Below, one piece after another: positions 1 through 13,048 of a stretch of DNA of 38,331 bases. Location of the stretch: the IMG/VR virus record IMGVR_UViG_3300050010_000202, positions 1-38,331 of that record. The stretch is one strand, 5' to 3'. The position numbers were made by a program, and so were the translations under genes. Position 1 is the stretch's first letter. Every line of letters starts with the position of its first letter. Below the pieces are notes generated by a model. The model searched no databases. It was given only the letters and a program-made list of their open reading frames with translations, and was not told where the DNA came from. The stretch is from a virus.

Positions 1-2040
1 AGCGTCGGGCTGACTCTCACGTCAATTCCTTTTTCTACTCAATACGAGTACTCACCCAACTTCGCCGACCTCGGCCACACGAACAGCAACGAGCATTTCT
101 TACAACATATGGATTTCCTCACCCCTGAGCTTTTGCGCGTGCTCCAACCGGGGCGTATTGCCGCTATCCACGTAAAAGACAGAATTGTGCCGAGCGGCCT
201 CACGGGCCTTGGCTTCCAGACCGTCTACCCCTTCCACATGCGGGTGACCGATCATTTTATGAAACACGGTTTCGCCTACATGGGCATGAAAACCATCGTC
301 ACGGATGTGGTCCGGGAGAACAACCAGACGTACCGTCTCGGGTGGACGGAACAGTGCAAGGACGGCACGAAGATGGGCGTGGGGATGCCGGAATATCTCC
401 TTATTTTCCGCAAGCCCCCTACGGATAACAGCAACGGATATGCGGACCTGCCCGTGGTGAAGAGCAAGGATAAATATAGGCTCTCGAAATGGCAGGTAGA
501 TGCTCACGGGTTTGAAAGGTCCTCTGGGGACAGACTCATGGACCCCGAAGAGCTTAAACAACTCACTCACCAGCAGATCTTCCGCCTTTTCCGGGATTAC
601 TCGCTCCACGAGGTCTATGACTTTGAACATCACGTGGAGATAGGCCAGACGATCTATGAGCACGGCCGCTTACCCGTGACTTTTATGCTCCTTCAGCCGC
701 AGTCGTGGAGCCCGGAAGTCTGGACGGACATCACGCGCATGAGAACGCTCAACGGGGCACAGAGCGCCAAAGGAAAGGAGATGCATCTCTGCTTGGCGAG
801 GGGGTCGATGGTTCTCACGAAGGAACGAGGCTATGTGCCTATCCAAGAGGTGACCATCGGCGAACACGCTTTGACGCATAAAGGACGTTGGAAGCCGGTA
901 GTAGTGGTACAAAATACGGGAATTCGAAGGGCAATAACGATAAAAGGCCAAGGTGTTCCTGGACTCACGCTGACGCCTGATCATAAAGTGTGGGCTCGTG
1001 TATCAAAGCGGGTTAGGTCGCGCGAAGGGGCAGAGTTTATCAGGCCCGATTGGGAAGAGGCGCAACGGCTGCTTGGCGCTTATGTCAATCTCAAACTACC
1101 AGAGCCGGAACTCCCCGTCAACGCAGATTGTACGCTGTGGTGGACTGTAGGGCGGTGGTTGGCTGACGGCCACATATCTACTCGGGGTTGTGCAATTATC
1201 AGTTGTGGAAAGGATAAATGGGAAGACTTCTCGTTAAAAGTTGGTCGATTCGGCGGAAATAAACCCTCTATCGGAACAGCAATTCAATTGCAATTATATG
1301 ATCCAGAAAGAGAGCTTCGAAACATCCTCGATAAATGCGGATCGGGAGCAGGGGGGAAGCACCTACCGCCTGAATCTTTCACGCTTCCAATCGAATATGC
1401 GACTGCGCTTCTTCATGGATATTTATCCGGAGATGGCTGTCTCAATGAAAAACGACAACGATGGATGGCAAGCAGTATCAGCCGAACCCTTTTGCTGGGT
1501 ATTTCCCACCTTGCGCAGCGAGTATACGGCACTATTGCAAGCGTCTATGCGAGTCGGCCAGAACGCGAAGGTGTGATTGAAGGACGGACCGTACATATGT
1601 GCCAAGAATGGGGGCTCAGTTTTGACACGGTCATTAATCGATCAAAGCCGTTCGTGGTTGAAGACGGGGCATGGAAGAAAATCCGATCAATTGAAGATGC
1701 CGGAGAAGTCGAGACGTGGAACTTAAGAATTGAGGAGGACGAGAGTTACACAGCTGAGGGTTGCATTGTCAAAAATTGCCCGATGCAATTTGATATCGCG
1801 GATAGGGTGATCGAGCAGATGAGTAATCCTGGGGATGTAGTATACGACCCCTTCAACGGGATCGGTACGGTTACCTTTCGGGCGGTGCTCGCGGGCCGCT
1901 ACGGGCTCGGGTGCGAACTGGCCCATAGCTATTGGCTCGATTCGTGTTTTTACGCGAAGGCGGCGGAACAGAAGAGGGCAACGCCGGGACTTTTCGACGC
2001 TGTTACGCAAGATGGAAAGGAAGAGGAGGTGGCCGTATGA
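1..2040 (+). CDS. DNA N4/N6 methyltransferase, 5' end cut off, intein-containing
   Basis: Site-specific DNA adenine or N4-cytosine methyltransferase. The frame is open from base 1 with no stop, so the gene starts outside the window; the first ATG in view (109) is internal. The methylase order is permuted (motif IV before motif I): a TSIPF motif lies at bases 22-36, and the SAM-binding motif DPFNGIGTV lies near bases 1846-1875, just after the conserved HLCP segment. A 329-residue intein (790-1776) interrupts that HLCP segment. Known relatives in podophages are often the C-terminal half of a DEAD/DEAH helicase-methylase fusion, so the missing N-terminus may carry a helicase; that is inference. 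The likely role is protecting phage DNA from host restriction. Its stop overlaps the next gene's start (ATGA). Confidence 0.88.
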   Translation, partial: SVGLTLTSIPFSTQYEYSPNFADLGHTNSNEHFLQHMDFLTPELLRVLQPGRIAAIHVKDRIVPSGLTGLGFQTVYPFHMRVTDHFMKHGFAYMGMKTIVTDVVRENNQTYRLGWTEQCKDGTKMGVGMPEYLLIFRKPPTDNSNGYADLPVVKSKDKYRLSKWQVDAHGFERSSGDRLMDPEELKQLTHQQIFRLFRDYSLHEVYDFEHHVEIGQTIYEHGRLPVTFMLLQPQSWSPEVWTDITRMRTLNGAQSAKGKEMHLCLARGSMVLTKERGYVPIQEVTIGEHALTHKGRWKPVVVVQNTGIRRAITIKGQGVPGLTLTPDHKVWARVSKRVRSREGAEFIRPDWEEAQRLLGAYVNLKLPEPELPVNADCTLWWTVGRWLADGHISTRGCAIISCGKDKWEDFSLKVGRFGGNKPSIGTAIQLQLYDPERELRNILDKCGSGAGGKHLPPESFTLPIEYATALLHGYLSGDGCLNEKRQRWMASSISRTLLLGISHLAQRVYGTIASVYASRPEREGVIEGRTVHMCQEWGLSFDTVINRSKPFVVEDGAWKKIRSIEDAGEVETWNLRIEEDESYTAEGCIVKNCPMQFDIADRVIEQMSNPGDVVYDPFNGIGTVTFRAVLAGRYGLGCELAHSYWLDSCFYAKAAEQKRATPGLFDAVTQDGKEEEVAV
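790..1776 (+). mobile_element. Intein with LAGLIDADG homing endonuclease domain
   Basis: The insertion starts at Cys (codon 790-792; block A CLARGSMVLT) and ends in VKN before the +1 extein Cys at 1777. It is 329 residues. Block B shows TPDH at intein residues 62-65. Two dodecapeptide motifs, TVGRWLADG (about 119-127) and LLHGYLSGDG (about 207-216), mark a DOD-type homing endonuclease. Block F resembles ETWNLRIEEDESY (308-320). Removing the insert rejoins HL to CPMQFD, restoring a normal methylase sequence. The penultimate residue is Lys rather than the usual His. By eye the insert is more AT-rich than the flanking exteins, consistent with later acquisition. Confidence 0.9.
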
Positions 2041-2244: not shown

Positions 2245-3120
2245 ATGGAGCCGCTTTGCATAGAAGGCTTCTGCGGTTTAGGCGGTTGGTCTGAGGGAGC
2301 CATTGTCGAGGGGTATACGTGCATTGGGTTTGATATTGAAAGACATGATTATGGAACCGGAGGATACCCAGGAACGCTGGTTTTGCAAGACATGTTGACC
2401 GTGGACGGCGCGCGCTGGAAGGACGCTGATTTGCTGCTTATGTCACCGCCCTGTCAGGAGTTCTCTTATATGGCTATGCCGTGGAGCAGAGCAAAGCAGA
2501 TAGGACAGGCATTACGCGGCGAAGGCGACTTCCCAAAGGGCTATACCGGCTCACGCACCGTACCTGAACTAACCGCCCTCTTCGACGCCTGTTTTCGCAT
2601 TCAGCGGGAAGCGATAGAGGCGGCGGGGCATTTTATTCCGATGGTTGTGGAGAATGTCCGGGGCGCCGAGAAGTGGGTAGGGCGGGCACGATGGCACTAT
2701 GGGAGCTTCTACCTTTGGGGGGATGTTCCGGCGCTTATGCCGCCCGCAAAAGCTATCAAGAATCCCGCCTGTAAAACATGGTATTTGCCAGATGATCCAC
2801 GTCATCAACCTAATCAGAGGTTCAATCGATTAGAAGGATGTAAACTCCCCGGCTTCCGCTTCGATGGCTCCGGCAAATCGTTTCAGACGGCGAGCGTGGA
2901 AGGGACGAAGCAGGGCGGCGATTGGTTCGCGGAAGCGCGCAAGGGAGGGGCAGGCGGAACGTCCGCAAGCTACGGCTCCAAGTCCCCCGCCCGGAAGGCC
3001 GCCTCCGCCATGATCGCCAAAATCCCTTTCGCACTTGCTCAATATATCGCGGCGTACTGGAAGCCGAGAGAAGCGGAGGAAAACACCAATAATATCAATA
3101 TTACTCAGGTCAATTGTTGA
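2245..3120 (+). CDS. DNA cytosine-C5 methyltransferase
   Basis: 291 residues, with family motifs in the usual order: motif I-like FCGLGGWSEG near residue 9, motif IV SPPCQEFS near residue 71 with the catalytic Cys, and motif VI ENVRG near residue 135. It should transfer a methyl group from SAM to C5 of cytosine in a short DNA target. It is somewhat short for the family, and the C-terminal target-recognition region (about 170-270) is compact and Gly/Lys-rich. The C-terminal tail has an AT-rich stretch of Asn codons. It follows the cysteine-rich protein by 10 bases. Together with the upstream N4/N6 methylase it gives the phage two DNA methylation activities, most likely anti-restriction; no restriction enzyme is encoded nearby. 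Confidence 0.9.
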   Translation: MEPLCIEGFCGLGGWSEGAIVEGYTCIGFDIERHDYGTGGYPGTLVLQDMLTVDGARWKDADLLLMSPPCQEFSYMAMPWSRAKQIGQALRGEGDFPKGYTGSRTVPELTALFDACFRIQREAIEAAGHFIPMVVENVRGAEKWVGRARWHYGSFYLWGDVPALMPPAKAIKNPACKTWYLPDDPRHQPNQRFNRLEGCKLPGFRFDGSGKSFQTASVEGTKQGGDWFAEARKGGAGGTSASYGSKSPARKAASAMIAKIPFALAQYIAAYWKPREAEENTNNINITQVNC

Positions 3121-9788: not shown

Positions 9789-11825
9789 TTAAGGTCCATC
9801 AAAAATAAACCCGCCTGTCACATTGCTCTGCGCGCTTCCCACACTCGTTGTCGGCTCGGGGGAACTGTAGGGGCGGACCAGCATGTATTTAATGAGCATA
9901 GTCGTGCTACTCTGTGACGACGCAGCCCCCAGCGACAAAGTCCCGTACATCGTATTGGTCGGCGTAGCAGTGGCCGAGGAGATGTCCACGAAGGCGTTCG
10001 CGTCATTCTGAATCTTGACATCTGTCGAGCTATTGAGCCACGTCCTATGTAGATGATATGCGGTTGCGTCGAGCGCCTGCGTCGTCGTGACCGTGGCGTT
10101 ATTCGATACATTATTGCTCATTCCCTGCCAATAGGCGGAAGCGTTCAGACCGTCACACACGCACGCGAAGATATTCAATGAGAAATCGGCCACAAACCCC
10201 ATGATGTCGTAGTGGTTCGTGCTGTTCGCGGCCTGCTCGTTGCGCGTGTATGCCTCGAAGATGTAACCGTTCGTAAACTGCTGCGCGGTATAGATACCGT
10301 AAACCGCGGCTCCCGCACCAGATACCATGGTGCCGACATTCCCTGAAATCGTAAGGCTGCCACCGCTCCCTGATTCCTGGCGCGTATAGGCATGGGAGGG
10401 GAGTGGAGTCGAAGCGAAGCCTTCGTAAAATCCGAATACCTGGTCGGGCGGGAATCCTTGGACGGTGTTGACCGCCGACATGGTCGCCATGCCGATCTCC
10501 AGGTTACTCGTGACGTTATTGATTGACCCGGCGTAGGGGAAATAGTATGTGTTGCTATATAGGGAGATTGCCCCCCTGAAAGCGGCATCGGAATCCCATG
10601 CGCTGTCATTCCCCCGGCTAAGAGTGATATTGCCTCGCGTGACGTTAACAAGATCAGTTGTGGAATAATAGGCCGTGTGGCAAGGCAGAGAGGTTGTTGC
10701 GGGGTCCTGGAGCGTCACCGCGCAATAGATGTAGACGGTGCCTCCTACCTCATAGGCATGTGGGTCTCTCGTCGCAGAAGCGTCATAAGCCCCGGCAGGC
10801 CCGAGGGGAATAAGGGGATTCGAGGCGTACTTGGTCCATGGGCCTGCCGGACTGCTGGCGTAAGCATAGCCGGTCTGAGGGATCTCGCTCCCGGCAGCGG
10901 TCGCCTTGTCTCCCATGTAGAGCATGACCCATGTGCCAGCCGCAAGGCTTCCGTGAGCATTGGCAAGCTGGAAAACGTAAGGCTCCGCGACCCGCCCACT
11001 TTCCCACCCCGTACCAAGCACCCCGGCTGTTGAGACGCAGGCCCCCTGATCCGTGTAGGTGCCCGTAACTGCACTCGCGGTGGCGTAGTGGATTGAGAAC
11101 GTGCCGTACACCGTCCCTACCGAGTAATAGAGATAATACGTGCCGCCGCTTATCACGAGACACGGGCCGTCAGGGTCGTTACTCAGGCCCGAGATAGTGA
11201 GGTCGCCGTTGTAGGTCCAGGTGGTCAGGTCGGTGGAATACGCCAGCCCGATTTTGGACGTGTTCATGTTGTCGATGACCATCCAGTATTTACTAGTGGC
11301 CGAGTCATAGACGATATTCTCAGGCGTGAGGGAGCCCGTGTGGGTGCCGTCCGACGTGATGACCGGATTGCCTGGATATTTGGTCCATGCCCCGATAGGC
11401 GGCACCTGGAAGGATGTAGGGGCGGCGTTGCCATAATAGATATACACGCTTGTCGTGCTGCTGCCGGGAATTGACGGGACGTTAACCCAGATTGTTCCGA
11501 CCTGACTCGCGCTGTTCCAGGAGGCATGCGTCACGCCATCGGGGGTCACTATAGCAGGACCTGTCTGGATCCAATAGGGAATCAGCGTGACGCCATCCGA
11601 CGCCGTGACCCTGATGTCCGAGCCGTCCGACTTTGCGACGGAGAAATCGAAATTTGAGCTGGTAAGGTCGATGGGGCGGGCATAGCCTGTCAGTGTGTTC
11701 GCATTGCTCGTGTTCGTGACCGTGACGGCGCGCCTGGTGCTCCAGGATGAGTTATACCAGCCTGCCCCATGTACAAGGCAGGGCCACAGGATAAGTGCGA
11801 TGAGAAGAACGGTTATCCGGCGCAT
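9789..11825 (-). CDS. Secreted DUF2341 / beta-propeller glycosidase-like protein
   Basis: 678 residues. The start at 11825 overlaps the previous stop (TGATG). Signal peptide: MRRITVLLIALILWPCLVHG. A DUF2341 beta-sandwich follows (about 22-125; begins GWYNSSWSTRRAV, ends SVYIYYGN). Next is a five-bladed propeller like GH43/GH130 glycosidases (about 130-460; repeated WTKYPGNPV and WTKYASNPL blade starts, DPDGPCLVISGGTYYLYYS). A C-terminal LamG/concanavalin-like domain (about 475-660) completes it. It likely binds or cleaves a surface polysaccharide. Catalytic residues cannot be confirmed by eye. It is encoded beside tail-fibre genes but carries an export signal. Confidence 0.75.
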   Translation of the reverse strand: MRRITVLLIALILWPCLVHGAGWYNSSWSTRRAVTVTNTSNANTLTGYARPIDLTSSNFDFSVAKSDGSDIRVTASDGVTLIPYWIQTGPAIVTPDGVTHASWNSASQVGTIWVNVPSIPGSSTTSVYIYYGNAAPTSFQVPPIGAWTKYPGNPVITSDGTHTGSLTPENIVYDSATSKYWMVIDNMNTSKIGLAYSTDLTTWTYNGDLTISGLSNDPDGPCLVISGGTYYLYYSVGTVYGTFSIHYATASAVTGTYTDQGACVSTAGVLGTGWESGRVAEPYVFQLANAHGSLAAGTWVMLYMGDKATAAGSEIPQTGYAYASSPAGPWTKYASNPLIPLGPAGAYDASATRDPHAYEVGGTVYIYCAVTLQDPATTSLPCHTAYYSTTDLVNVTRGNITLSRGNDSAWDSDAAFRGAISLYSNTYYFPYAGSINNVTSNLEIGMATMSAVNTVQGFPPDQVFGFYEGFASTPLPSHAYTRQESGSGGSLTISGNVGTMVSGAGAAVYGIYTAQQFTNGYIFEAYTRNEQAANSTNHYDIMGFVADFSLNIFACVCDGLNASAYWQGMSNNVSNNATVTTTQALDATAYHLHRTWLNSSTDVKIQNDANAFVDISSATATPTNTMYGTLSLGAASSQSSTTMLIKYMLVRPYSSPEPTTSVGSAQSNVTGGFIFDGP

Positions 11826-13048
11826 CAGAAGTTGTCTCCGATTGATCCGCAGAAGTAGGCCGACATGGCCCCGCTGTACTGGCATGTGATCGCATCATGC
11901 TTCGTCGAGGCTCCCGAGAAGGTCGGGGCCGATCCGCTTACCCATGTCACTGTAGGGCTGAAGGTCGGCAAGGGTGCCGGTCCTGATGACCCCTGAATCA
12001 CGTATATGCGGTACACCTGACCCGCTACGGGGTTACTCATGGTGAGGGTCCATGCGGTCGTGTTGTTCTGTGCAGTGAGCACGCACGTGGACCCGGAGCC
12101 CCAGTTGCATGTTGCGGCGTTCGATGAGACCGTGACGGACTGTTCCCCCCCTCCCATGTAGGCCGATACGTTGGAGACCGAGGTCACCTTGGTCGAGTCC
12201 GCTACCGTGCAGGTCGACCCGAGGGTGCAGGCCTGCCCGTTGACCGTCGTGGAGGCATTGGCGAGGTTCGCATTACTGATCCCCGCCGAGCCCGAAAGGT
12301 TGCTGTTTGTGAGTCCACTTATCGAATTAGACCCAGCCGCGATGGTCTTATTCGTGAGGGCCTGGCTGTCGGACGTGCCTACGATTGTTCCGGCCGGAGC
12401 CGTGAGGGACGTCCCCCATGTGCTTGAGCCGGAATAAACCGCGATGCCAGCCGCAGACGGCCATGTCATGGAGCCGCCCCCCGCGTACTGCGGGATATTC
12501 AGTGTGCCTGCGCTTAATGTCGCCGCGCCACTCGTGCCGGTCGTTGTCAGGGTGAGGGCTGCCTGTTTGCTCGACGTGGTGATTGCCGACCATGAGTCAA
12601 GATTCGCGCTCCACGCTTCGGTATTGGTGCCGATGACTAAGGAAAGGTCCGCGGGGGTGACCGTGACGTTTCCGGAAAGAGCATAGCCGTTGACTGTGGT
12701 GGATTGGGAGACATAGGAACCGGCTGCCTGGAAGAGCGTGGTGAGAAGGGTCCCTCCCGACTTCGTGCATGTCACCACCCCGGTCGATACCACGATGGTG
12801 CAATCGCCCGACATGGTGAAGCCGCCGAAGGCCGTGCCACTGTTATTCCACTGAATTTGGTTTGCTGTTCCCCCTGGGTTCGCAGCGGTCCCACTCACGG
12901 CCTGACAGGTATATCTCCCCGTGGTCGCGCTGTAGGTCGGGACATACCCCGTCTGCGTGCAGGCAGGCATCTCGAAAATCTGAGGGATCGCCCACGCCTG
13001 TTCTGCCAGGAGGATGCCAAGGAGAATGAGGAGGAGGTAACGTTTCAT
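11825..13048 (-). CDS. Secreted fibre-like protein with cysteine pairs
   Basis: 407 residues. ATG at 13048 with AAGGAG upstream; the frame remains open further upstream but there it only shadows the next gene. Signal peptide MKRYLLLILLGILLAEQAWA. The mature protein is Ser/Thr/Gly-rich, beta-rich and fibre-like (GYALSGNVTVTPADLSLVIG, SDSQALTNKTIAAGSNSISG). Cysteines come in close pairs (CTQTGY..YTC, CTIVVSTGVVTC, CTLGSTC, CNWGSGSTC, CQYSGAMSAYFC), suggesting disulfides formed outside the cytoplasm. Similar 'LTNKTI' segments occur in phage tail fibres. Receptor-binding or adhesin-like role is inferred. Confidence 0.68.
   Translation of the reverse strand: MKRYLLLILLGILLAEQAWAIPQIFEMPACTQTGYVPTYSATTGRYTCQAVSGTAANPGGTANQIQWNNSGTAFGGFTMSGDCTIVVSTGVVTCTKSGGTLLTTLFQAAGSYVSQSTTVNGYALSGNVTVTPADLSLVIGTNTEAWSANLDSWSAITTSSKQAALTLTTTGTSGAATLSAGTLNIPQYAGGGSMTWPSAAGIAVYSGSSTWGTSLTAPAGTIVGTSDSQALTNKTIAAGSNSISGLTNSNLSGSAGISNANLANASTTVNGQACTLGSTCTVADSTKVTSVSNVSAYMGGGEQSVTVSSNAATCNWGSGSTCVLTAQNNTTAWTLTMSNPVAGQVYRIYVIQGSSGPAPLPTFSPTVTWVSGSAPTFSGASTKHDAITCQYSGAMSAYFCGSIGDNF

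Follow-up and report, generated by a model that had tools for sequence, protein, structure and literature searches.

A probable intein with a two-motif LAGLIDADG endonuclease in a phage N6/N4 DNA methyltransferase

What is the long in-frame segment that separates the two halves of a DNA methyltransferase gene at the edge of this viral contig, and does it still move? The window analysed here is the whole virus record (38,331 bases). The open reading frame that holds the segment lies at 1-2040 (+). Its 5' end is open at the contig edge, so the gene start lies off the contig. Elsewhere in the window, close to the tail genes, a large open reading frame at 9789-11885 (-) matches DUF2341 and Glyco_hydro_43. 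We consider it very likely that the segment is a class-1-type intein with a two-motif LAGLIDADG endonuclease. It would interrupt a phage N6/N4 methyltransferase without disturbing the frame, splitting a conserved H-[LVI]-C-P motif after Leu-1 and before Cys+1, with a splicing and homing mechanism that we infer from its residues. The features are as follows; in motifs below, a slash marks an intein junction.

1..789 (+): N-extein, N6/N4 methyltransferase part (phrog_16 and 2zie matches; helicase domain upstream in relatives)
790..1776 (+): intein (P0001), 329 aa, predicted Hint splicing and LAGLIDADG endonuclease domains, by motifs, profiles and fold model
790..828 (+): splicing block A, Cys1 at 790-792 (Cys in 37/37 distinct same-site inteins)
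973..984 (+): splicing block B, TPDH, His65 (Thr62 and His65 in 37/37)
1147..1170 (+): LAGLIDADG motif 1, VGRWLADG, D126 at 1165-1167 (Asp in 37/37)
1411..1437 (+): LAGLIDADG motif 2, LHGYLSGDG, D215 at 1432-1434 (Asp in 36/37, Tyr in L004)
1711..1776 (+): splicing blocks F and G, ETWNLRIEEDESYTAEGCIVKN, penultimate Lys328 and terminal Asn329 (from the same-site intein alignment)
1777..2037 (+): C-extein, first residues Cys+1 and Pro+2 (PF01555 match); stop at 2038-2040
1846-1872 (+): motif I, DPFNGIGTV, inside the C-extein

Host gene and intein anatomy

Outside the insert, PF01555 matches the C-terminal part of the frame (6.2e-11), phrog_16 matches the window methylase (4e-63; best stretch 31-264) and the N-terminal part matches 2zie (5.4e-05). 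A profile built from 37 intein-free relatives matches 2zie at 7.8e-19 and M.MboIIA at 8.3e-08. The N-extein contains SIPF at 22-33, which we take to be the catalytic-type methyltransferase motif. The modelled fold of one intein-free relative (pLDDT only 66.9) resembles 2zif, M.BceJIV, CcrM and RsrI among the best 50 matches listed. Around the insertion site the methylase model is poor (316-321 below pLDDT 50), making it impossible to place the site relative to the cofactor from the model. In Pacc40 gp60, a mycobacteriophage relative, a helicase C-terminal domain lies upstream of the methylase part. By family profile, motif I and predicted fold, we assign the host gene to the beta-class N6/N4 DNA methyltransferases. 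An earlier note on this DNA had named a DNA methyltransferase as host, and the PF01555 match and the profile and fold matches to beta-class enzymes agree with it.

The insert at 790-1776 (+) consists of 329 stop-free in-frame codons. It begins with Cys1 and ends in IVKN, and the next extein residue is Cys; the boundaries proposed in the earlier note were exact to the base. For comparison we used a same-site set of 37 distinct full-length inteins (51 before identical ones were dropped), all at 41% identity or more. Asn329 is present in 37/37, and the C-extein starts with CP in 37/37. Both LAGLIDADG motifs had been described as intact, and on the alignment both acidic residues are indeed present in the window. 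The intein of L004 (loci are cited by L number) is a decayed copy in which the second endonuclease acidic residue has changed from Asp to Tyr.

Textbook inteins have an Asp and a His in block F and a penultimate His at the C-terminus. In the window, block F has Asn in place of Asp and Glu in place of His. The usual penultimate His is also absent: the same-site inteins have Lys (35/37), Ala (1) or His (1) at this position. Cyanobacterial DnaE inteins are described in passages of PMC5874633 as having a penultimate Ser or Ala instead of His. Because of such published exceptions, His is not defining, and Lys is no bar to membership of the class-1 type. Splicing efficiency is uncertain since the C-terminal splicing blocks are not textbook (Lys, Asn, Glu).

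Pfam alone leaves the case for an intein weak, with Hint_2 and Intein_splicing both under their cut-offs on the window intein. Searching the PDB with this one sequence brought up nothing but unconvincing matches to unrelated molecules, so a family profile is needed to match solved inteins. A 45-sequence profile has PI-PkoII as its best solved intein (1.3e-10) and matches the Mtu RecA intein over 292-329. The intein model from 45 natural sequences has a mean pLDDT of 94.7 and a pTM of 0.92. Among the best 50 VIA-align matches listed, the top one is the TliVMA intein (Z 27.6, rmsd 3.1, 301 residues aligned), followed by PI-PkoII (2cw7), PhoVMA and PI-SceI. Foldseek is concordant, with PI-SceI and I-DmoI among its best 50 listed. 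TliVMA, PI-PkoII and PI-SceI share the splicing and endonuclease folds predicted for the window intein, but they are only 15-18% identical to it over the aligned part and reside in other host proteins. In the predicted model, the Hint fold lies in the gene's own frame and, with the endonuclease fold, extends over the whole length of the insert.

Cys1, TxxH, the terminal Asn, Cys+1, the predicted Hint fold and an exact empty site argue strongly for a class-1-type intein. The earlier note had also called it an intein; motifs, profile matches and a confident fold model point the same way. The two motifs, both acidic residues and the predicted endonuclease fold argue for a LAGLIDADG homing endonuclease.

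Insertion site and intein-free relatives

The insertion splits HLCP, with HL at 784-789 and CP at 1777-1782. The site had been described as a SAM-pocket motif just before motif I. The split of HLCP stands; the location is refined to an H-x-x-P segment, the insertion point preceding motif I by 23 residues. The profile built from 37 empty relatives pairs H-L-C-P with H-P-A-P in 2zie and with H-I-T-P in M.MboIIA, and we take the H-x-x-P segment at the insertion point to be methyltransferase motif X. PMC4490356 describes contacts between residues of motif X and the target adenine in EcoP15I.

The earlier note proposed looking for intein-free relatives with the same flanks. Among the best 80 of 524 viral relatives, 75 are empty, with a gap of 0 between the two flank matches, and the remaining five (L002-L006) have 975-1011 bases of intein at the same point. 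Neither finding that the note named as a refutation, an insert present in every relative or missing acidic residues, was obtained. After three further scans the pool held 337 loci, of which 30 had no flank match and were left unscored. Among the scored loci with an N-flank, 247/307 are empty and 60/307 carry an intein, same-contig duplicates included. In the close pair L160 (Pacc40) and L161, DNA identity is 97.5% in the 789 nt upstream and 95.8% in the 240 nt downstream, and nothing but the insert interrupts the alignment.

The empty loci have His (247/247), Leu, Val or Ile (247/247), Cys (246/247) and Pro (247/247) at this point, which bears out the suggestion that the site is one other phages must conserve. 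As Cys is native in 246/247 empty loci, the splicing nucleophile Cys+1 is the methylase's own residue. The same count led us to reject an insert that carries its own +1 residue.

Judging from these residues and the fold model, the insert most likely cuts itself out of the methylase. Cys1 would form a thioester with the N-extein, and Cys+1 would take the thioester over. Asn329 would then cyclise, leaving the methylase halves joined so that the pocket can form. Before splicing, the methylase would be inactive. The freed intein would cut intein-free alleles at the DNA encoding H-[LVI]-C-P, and repair would copy the intein in. The copy in the window may itself be active.

Mobility and spread of the lineage

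Intein presence is patchy on the methylase tree. With 228 deduplicated rows (37 with and 191 without the intein), the tree requires at least 24 gains or losses, 15 of them forced by well-supported (starred) branches. Duplicates (76) were dropped, and L086, L105, L119 and L156 were left out as too short or cut off. Shuffled intein labels need about 35 changes, so the real labels are clustered but very patchy.

Intein and extein trees of 35 sequences disagree: when the trees are exchanged, the two data sets lose 1100 and 1272 lnL units (L147 and L086, with broken or partial N-exteins, were left out). Restricting the comparison to the main methylase family (26 sequences) gives gaps of 874 and 770 units. 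In a control on the 26 sequences, alternate-column halves of one gene differ by 26-84 units, and half data sets lose 447-488 units on the other element's tree. The same control separates the splicing part of the intein from its endonuclease part by 79 and 248 units. We used the size of the likelihood gap and did not take AU p-values alone as proof, because those of the one-gene control splits were also 0.0002-0.05.

Individual comparisons show the same discordance. The window and L092 are 58% identical in the intein and 28% in the methylase; the window and L005 are 44% identical in the intein and 68% in the methylase. The window methylase groups with L002 and L005, and the L005 intein is the same as that of L154 (Proteiniphilum). 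The window intein groups with Micromonospora, Dactylosporangium and cluster-F mycobacteriophage inteins, with a support of only 76. Five cluster-F phage loci have intein DNA that is 98.8-100% identical and N-exteins that are 94.0-98.5% identical; between L160 and L176, both from cluster-F phages, the intein is identical over 993 nt and the N-extein DNA is 94.0% identical. These comparisons indicate that the intein lineage moves independently of its host gene. The earlier note's view that the element may still be mobile is upheld for the lineage by patchy spread, discordant trees and identical inteins. For the window copy, the sole direct sign of activity is its intact residues. Its nearest intein-bearing relative is 62% identical over the intein, and no close one was found.

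A scan of contigs from 84,980 species gave 11 loci, ten from the same-site lineage (42-61% identity) and one from a lineage in C5-methyltransferases described below. The same-site hosts are Micromonospora (twice), Bradyrhizobium, Dactylosporangium, [Pseudomonas] boreopolis, Duganella, a Planctomycetaceae MAG, Proteiniphilum, a Prevotella MAG and Aureimonas, where the match ends at residue 293. Same-site inteins occur in contigs of four bacterial phyla; these loci are probably prophages. The insertion is at H[LVI]/CP in 37/37 same-site inteins, and in a 50-intein tree the 33 same-site (motif-X) rows form one side of a branch (support 99, starred). Same-site inteins also occur in a divergent methylase family (L092, L097, L109, L113-L115 and L153) whose N-exteins are 27-37% identical to the window over part of their length. 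Among the relatives found with L109, 17/18 loci are empty (L241-L257), and the remaining one, L240, is L109's own contig.

Two members of the divergent family, L097 (3-89) and L113 (upstream part, open reading frame from 2), have a helicase part with the end of a second intein-like sequence, GALVHN/SS. It would interrupt a helicase motif, and there would be two inteins per polypeptide.

Distant homologues (24-36% identity, full length) are found in C5-cytosine methyltransferases, immediately ahead of the Cys in the P-C motif, which we take to be the catalytic Cys of these enzymes. The typical site, assigned from flanking sequence, is GG[FTS]P/C...HN/CQ. In the 50-intein tree a branch with a support of 68 sets the 16 C5-site copies apart, and their neighbour is the nrdD intein of Lactococcus phage 949. 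The last two residues are His-Asn in 16/16 C5-site copies versus Lys-Asn in 35/37 motif-X copies.

Several records show the C5 site in occupied or empty form. Directly downstream of the invaded methylase, the window has a short C5-type methyltransferase gene at 2245-3120 (+) with an empty SPP/CQEF site. The dmt gene of a phage P1 isolate (OP279344; L159, 3001-4023) has a full intein-like insert, GGTP/C...VVHN/CQAF, with Hint_2 and LAGLIDADG_3 both above Pfam cut-offs. Eighteen phage records match at 90% identity or more: query coverage is at least 80% in five, and only 55-66% in the other 13, among them reference P1 (NC_005856) and P7, which is the coverage that a gene lacking the insert should give. 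The window intein also matches 128 plasmid records, mostly from Escherichia, and the plasmid matches listed are about 24% identical and lie in Dam-type methylase genes. We presume that these are prophage plasmids of the P1-like type and carry the insert seen in dmt. The C5-methylase of Mannheimia phage 587AP2 (L341, 364-2200), annotated as two overlapping genes, has an intein-like insert at the P-C site.

Tentatively, and in our estimate at a little under an even chance, the lineage is a specialist of DNA-methyltransferase active sites. Its place in N6/N4 enzymes would be motif X, in phages and in what are probably prophages from four or more bacterial phyla, and it would have passed from one methylase family to another although only about a quarter to a third of the residues are shared. 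A sister would reside at the catalytic Cys of C5 enzymes, and splicing would proceed with the unusual Asn, Glu and Lys for Asp, His and His.

Known systems and alternative readings

The intein in Mycobacterium phage Pacc40 gp60 is already mentioned in print, and inteins of this methylase family are known from the published literature. In Table 1 of PMC5050341, clusters F1 and F3 account for seven DNMT-1 inteins, and clusters E and F1 for four of DNMT-2; from the F1/F3 distribution, DNMT-1 is probably the Pacc40 gp60 type. The inteins of Pacc40 gp60 and cluster-F phages share with the window the insertion point (HV/C...VKN/CP), the methylase family and a two-motif endonuclease. The Pacc40 intein is 59% identical to the window over the whole intein, its host methylase is only 57% identical, and the window intein is on its own branch, apart from the Pacc40 type. 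The kind of intein is thus known from mycobacteriophages, and so, probably, is its insertion site; the window holds a divergent member. The P/C inteins of C5-methyltransferases, including some P1 dmt genes, belong to the same intein family and also interrupt a methylase catalytic motif, but in another enzyme class and at another site. The cross-phylum spread, the conserved penultimate Lys for His and the C5-site sister lineage that includes some P1 dmt genes are apparently new; we found no description of this spread, the Lys-Asn ending or the sister lineage in searches of open-access PMC papers.

According to PMC9957025, the intein of the phage N6/N4-type methylase Dorothy_75 moves by homing from one phage to another. 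It occupies another site, WLYG/C...ITGN/SGFPK, and is barely related to the window family. We rejected its identity with the window intein on the basis of the different site and a score of 6.9 bits against the family profile.

Several RefSeq records of cluster-F mycobacteriophages give this methylase the name 'anaerobic ribonucleoside reductase large subunit'. The name probably stems from the similarity of the methylase's intein to the nrdD intein of Lactococcus phage 949. The same nrdD-type annotation carry-over is seen in phrog_26446.

The main competitor to a mobile intein is one that splices but has lost its endonuclease activity in this phage, making it a vertically inherited resident. 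Decay does occur in the family, as the same-site copy in L004 has lost its second acidic residue, and the window has no close intein-bearing relative. We nevertheless consider such a resident unlikely, since the window keeps both acidic residues and a full-length endonuclease domain, and its intein groups with Actinomycetota inteins (at the support of 76 given above) while its methylase groups elsewhere. Purifying selection on the endonuclease region in the measurable relatives also argues against it: dN/dS is 0.06-0.22 in the five pairs with unsaturated dS (L107/L108, L110/L112, L093/L149, L149/L151 and L093/L151). Four of the other five pairs are saturated, and L082/L085 gives 0.34 on few changes.

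Two further readings are far less probable. Conditional splicing might let the phage control the timing of methylase activity, making the insert useful and not only selfish. An insertion in a pocket motif would tie activity to splicing, and the unusual C-terminal residues are kept in the same-site lineage (Lys in 35/37). Yet 191 of the 228 deduplicated relatives do without the insert, and its distribution is that of a homing parasite; we find this reading very improbable. Still harder to credit is the idea that the insert does not splice, being either a permanent domain or an element such as those of the hidden-HNH type. Section 3.6 of PMC11855218 reports non-splicing insertions with hidden HNH frames in phage methylases, and Pacc40 gp60 is described there as having a second, non-intein insertion at another position. 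In the window, the penultimate His is absent, and splicing is predicted from sequence. The longest open reading frame in another plus-strand frame of the insert is at 1241-1576. Hidden-HNH insertions of the ShiLan type are without a detectable splicing domain in the gene's own frame, where the window model has a Hint fold. The insert also has Cys1, TxxH, the terminal Asn and Cys+1, is predicted to adopt the Hint and endonuclease folds over its whole length, and is cleanly absent from most relatives.

A class-1-type intein with a LAGLIDADG endonuclease therefore stays the preferred reading, and the window copy alone is ordinary for its kind. Phage methylase inteins have so far been described mainly from mycobacteriophages, and the same element is found at the same point in phages of distant hosts. 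This makes the methylase motif useful as a marker of gene flow among phages that are far apart. Alleles with and without the intein, in what is nearly the same gene, form a natural panel for measuring homing, and the conserved penultimate Lys raises a question of splicing chemistry that is directly testable.
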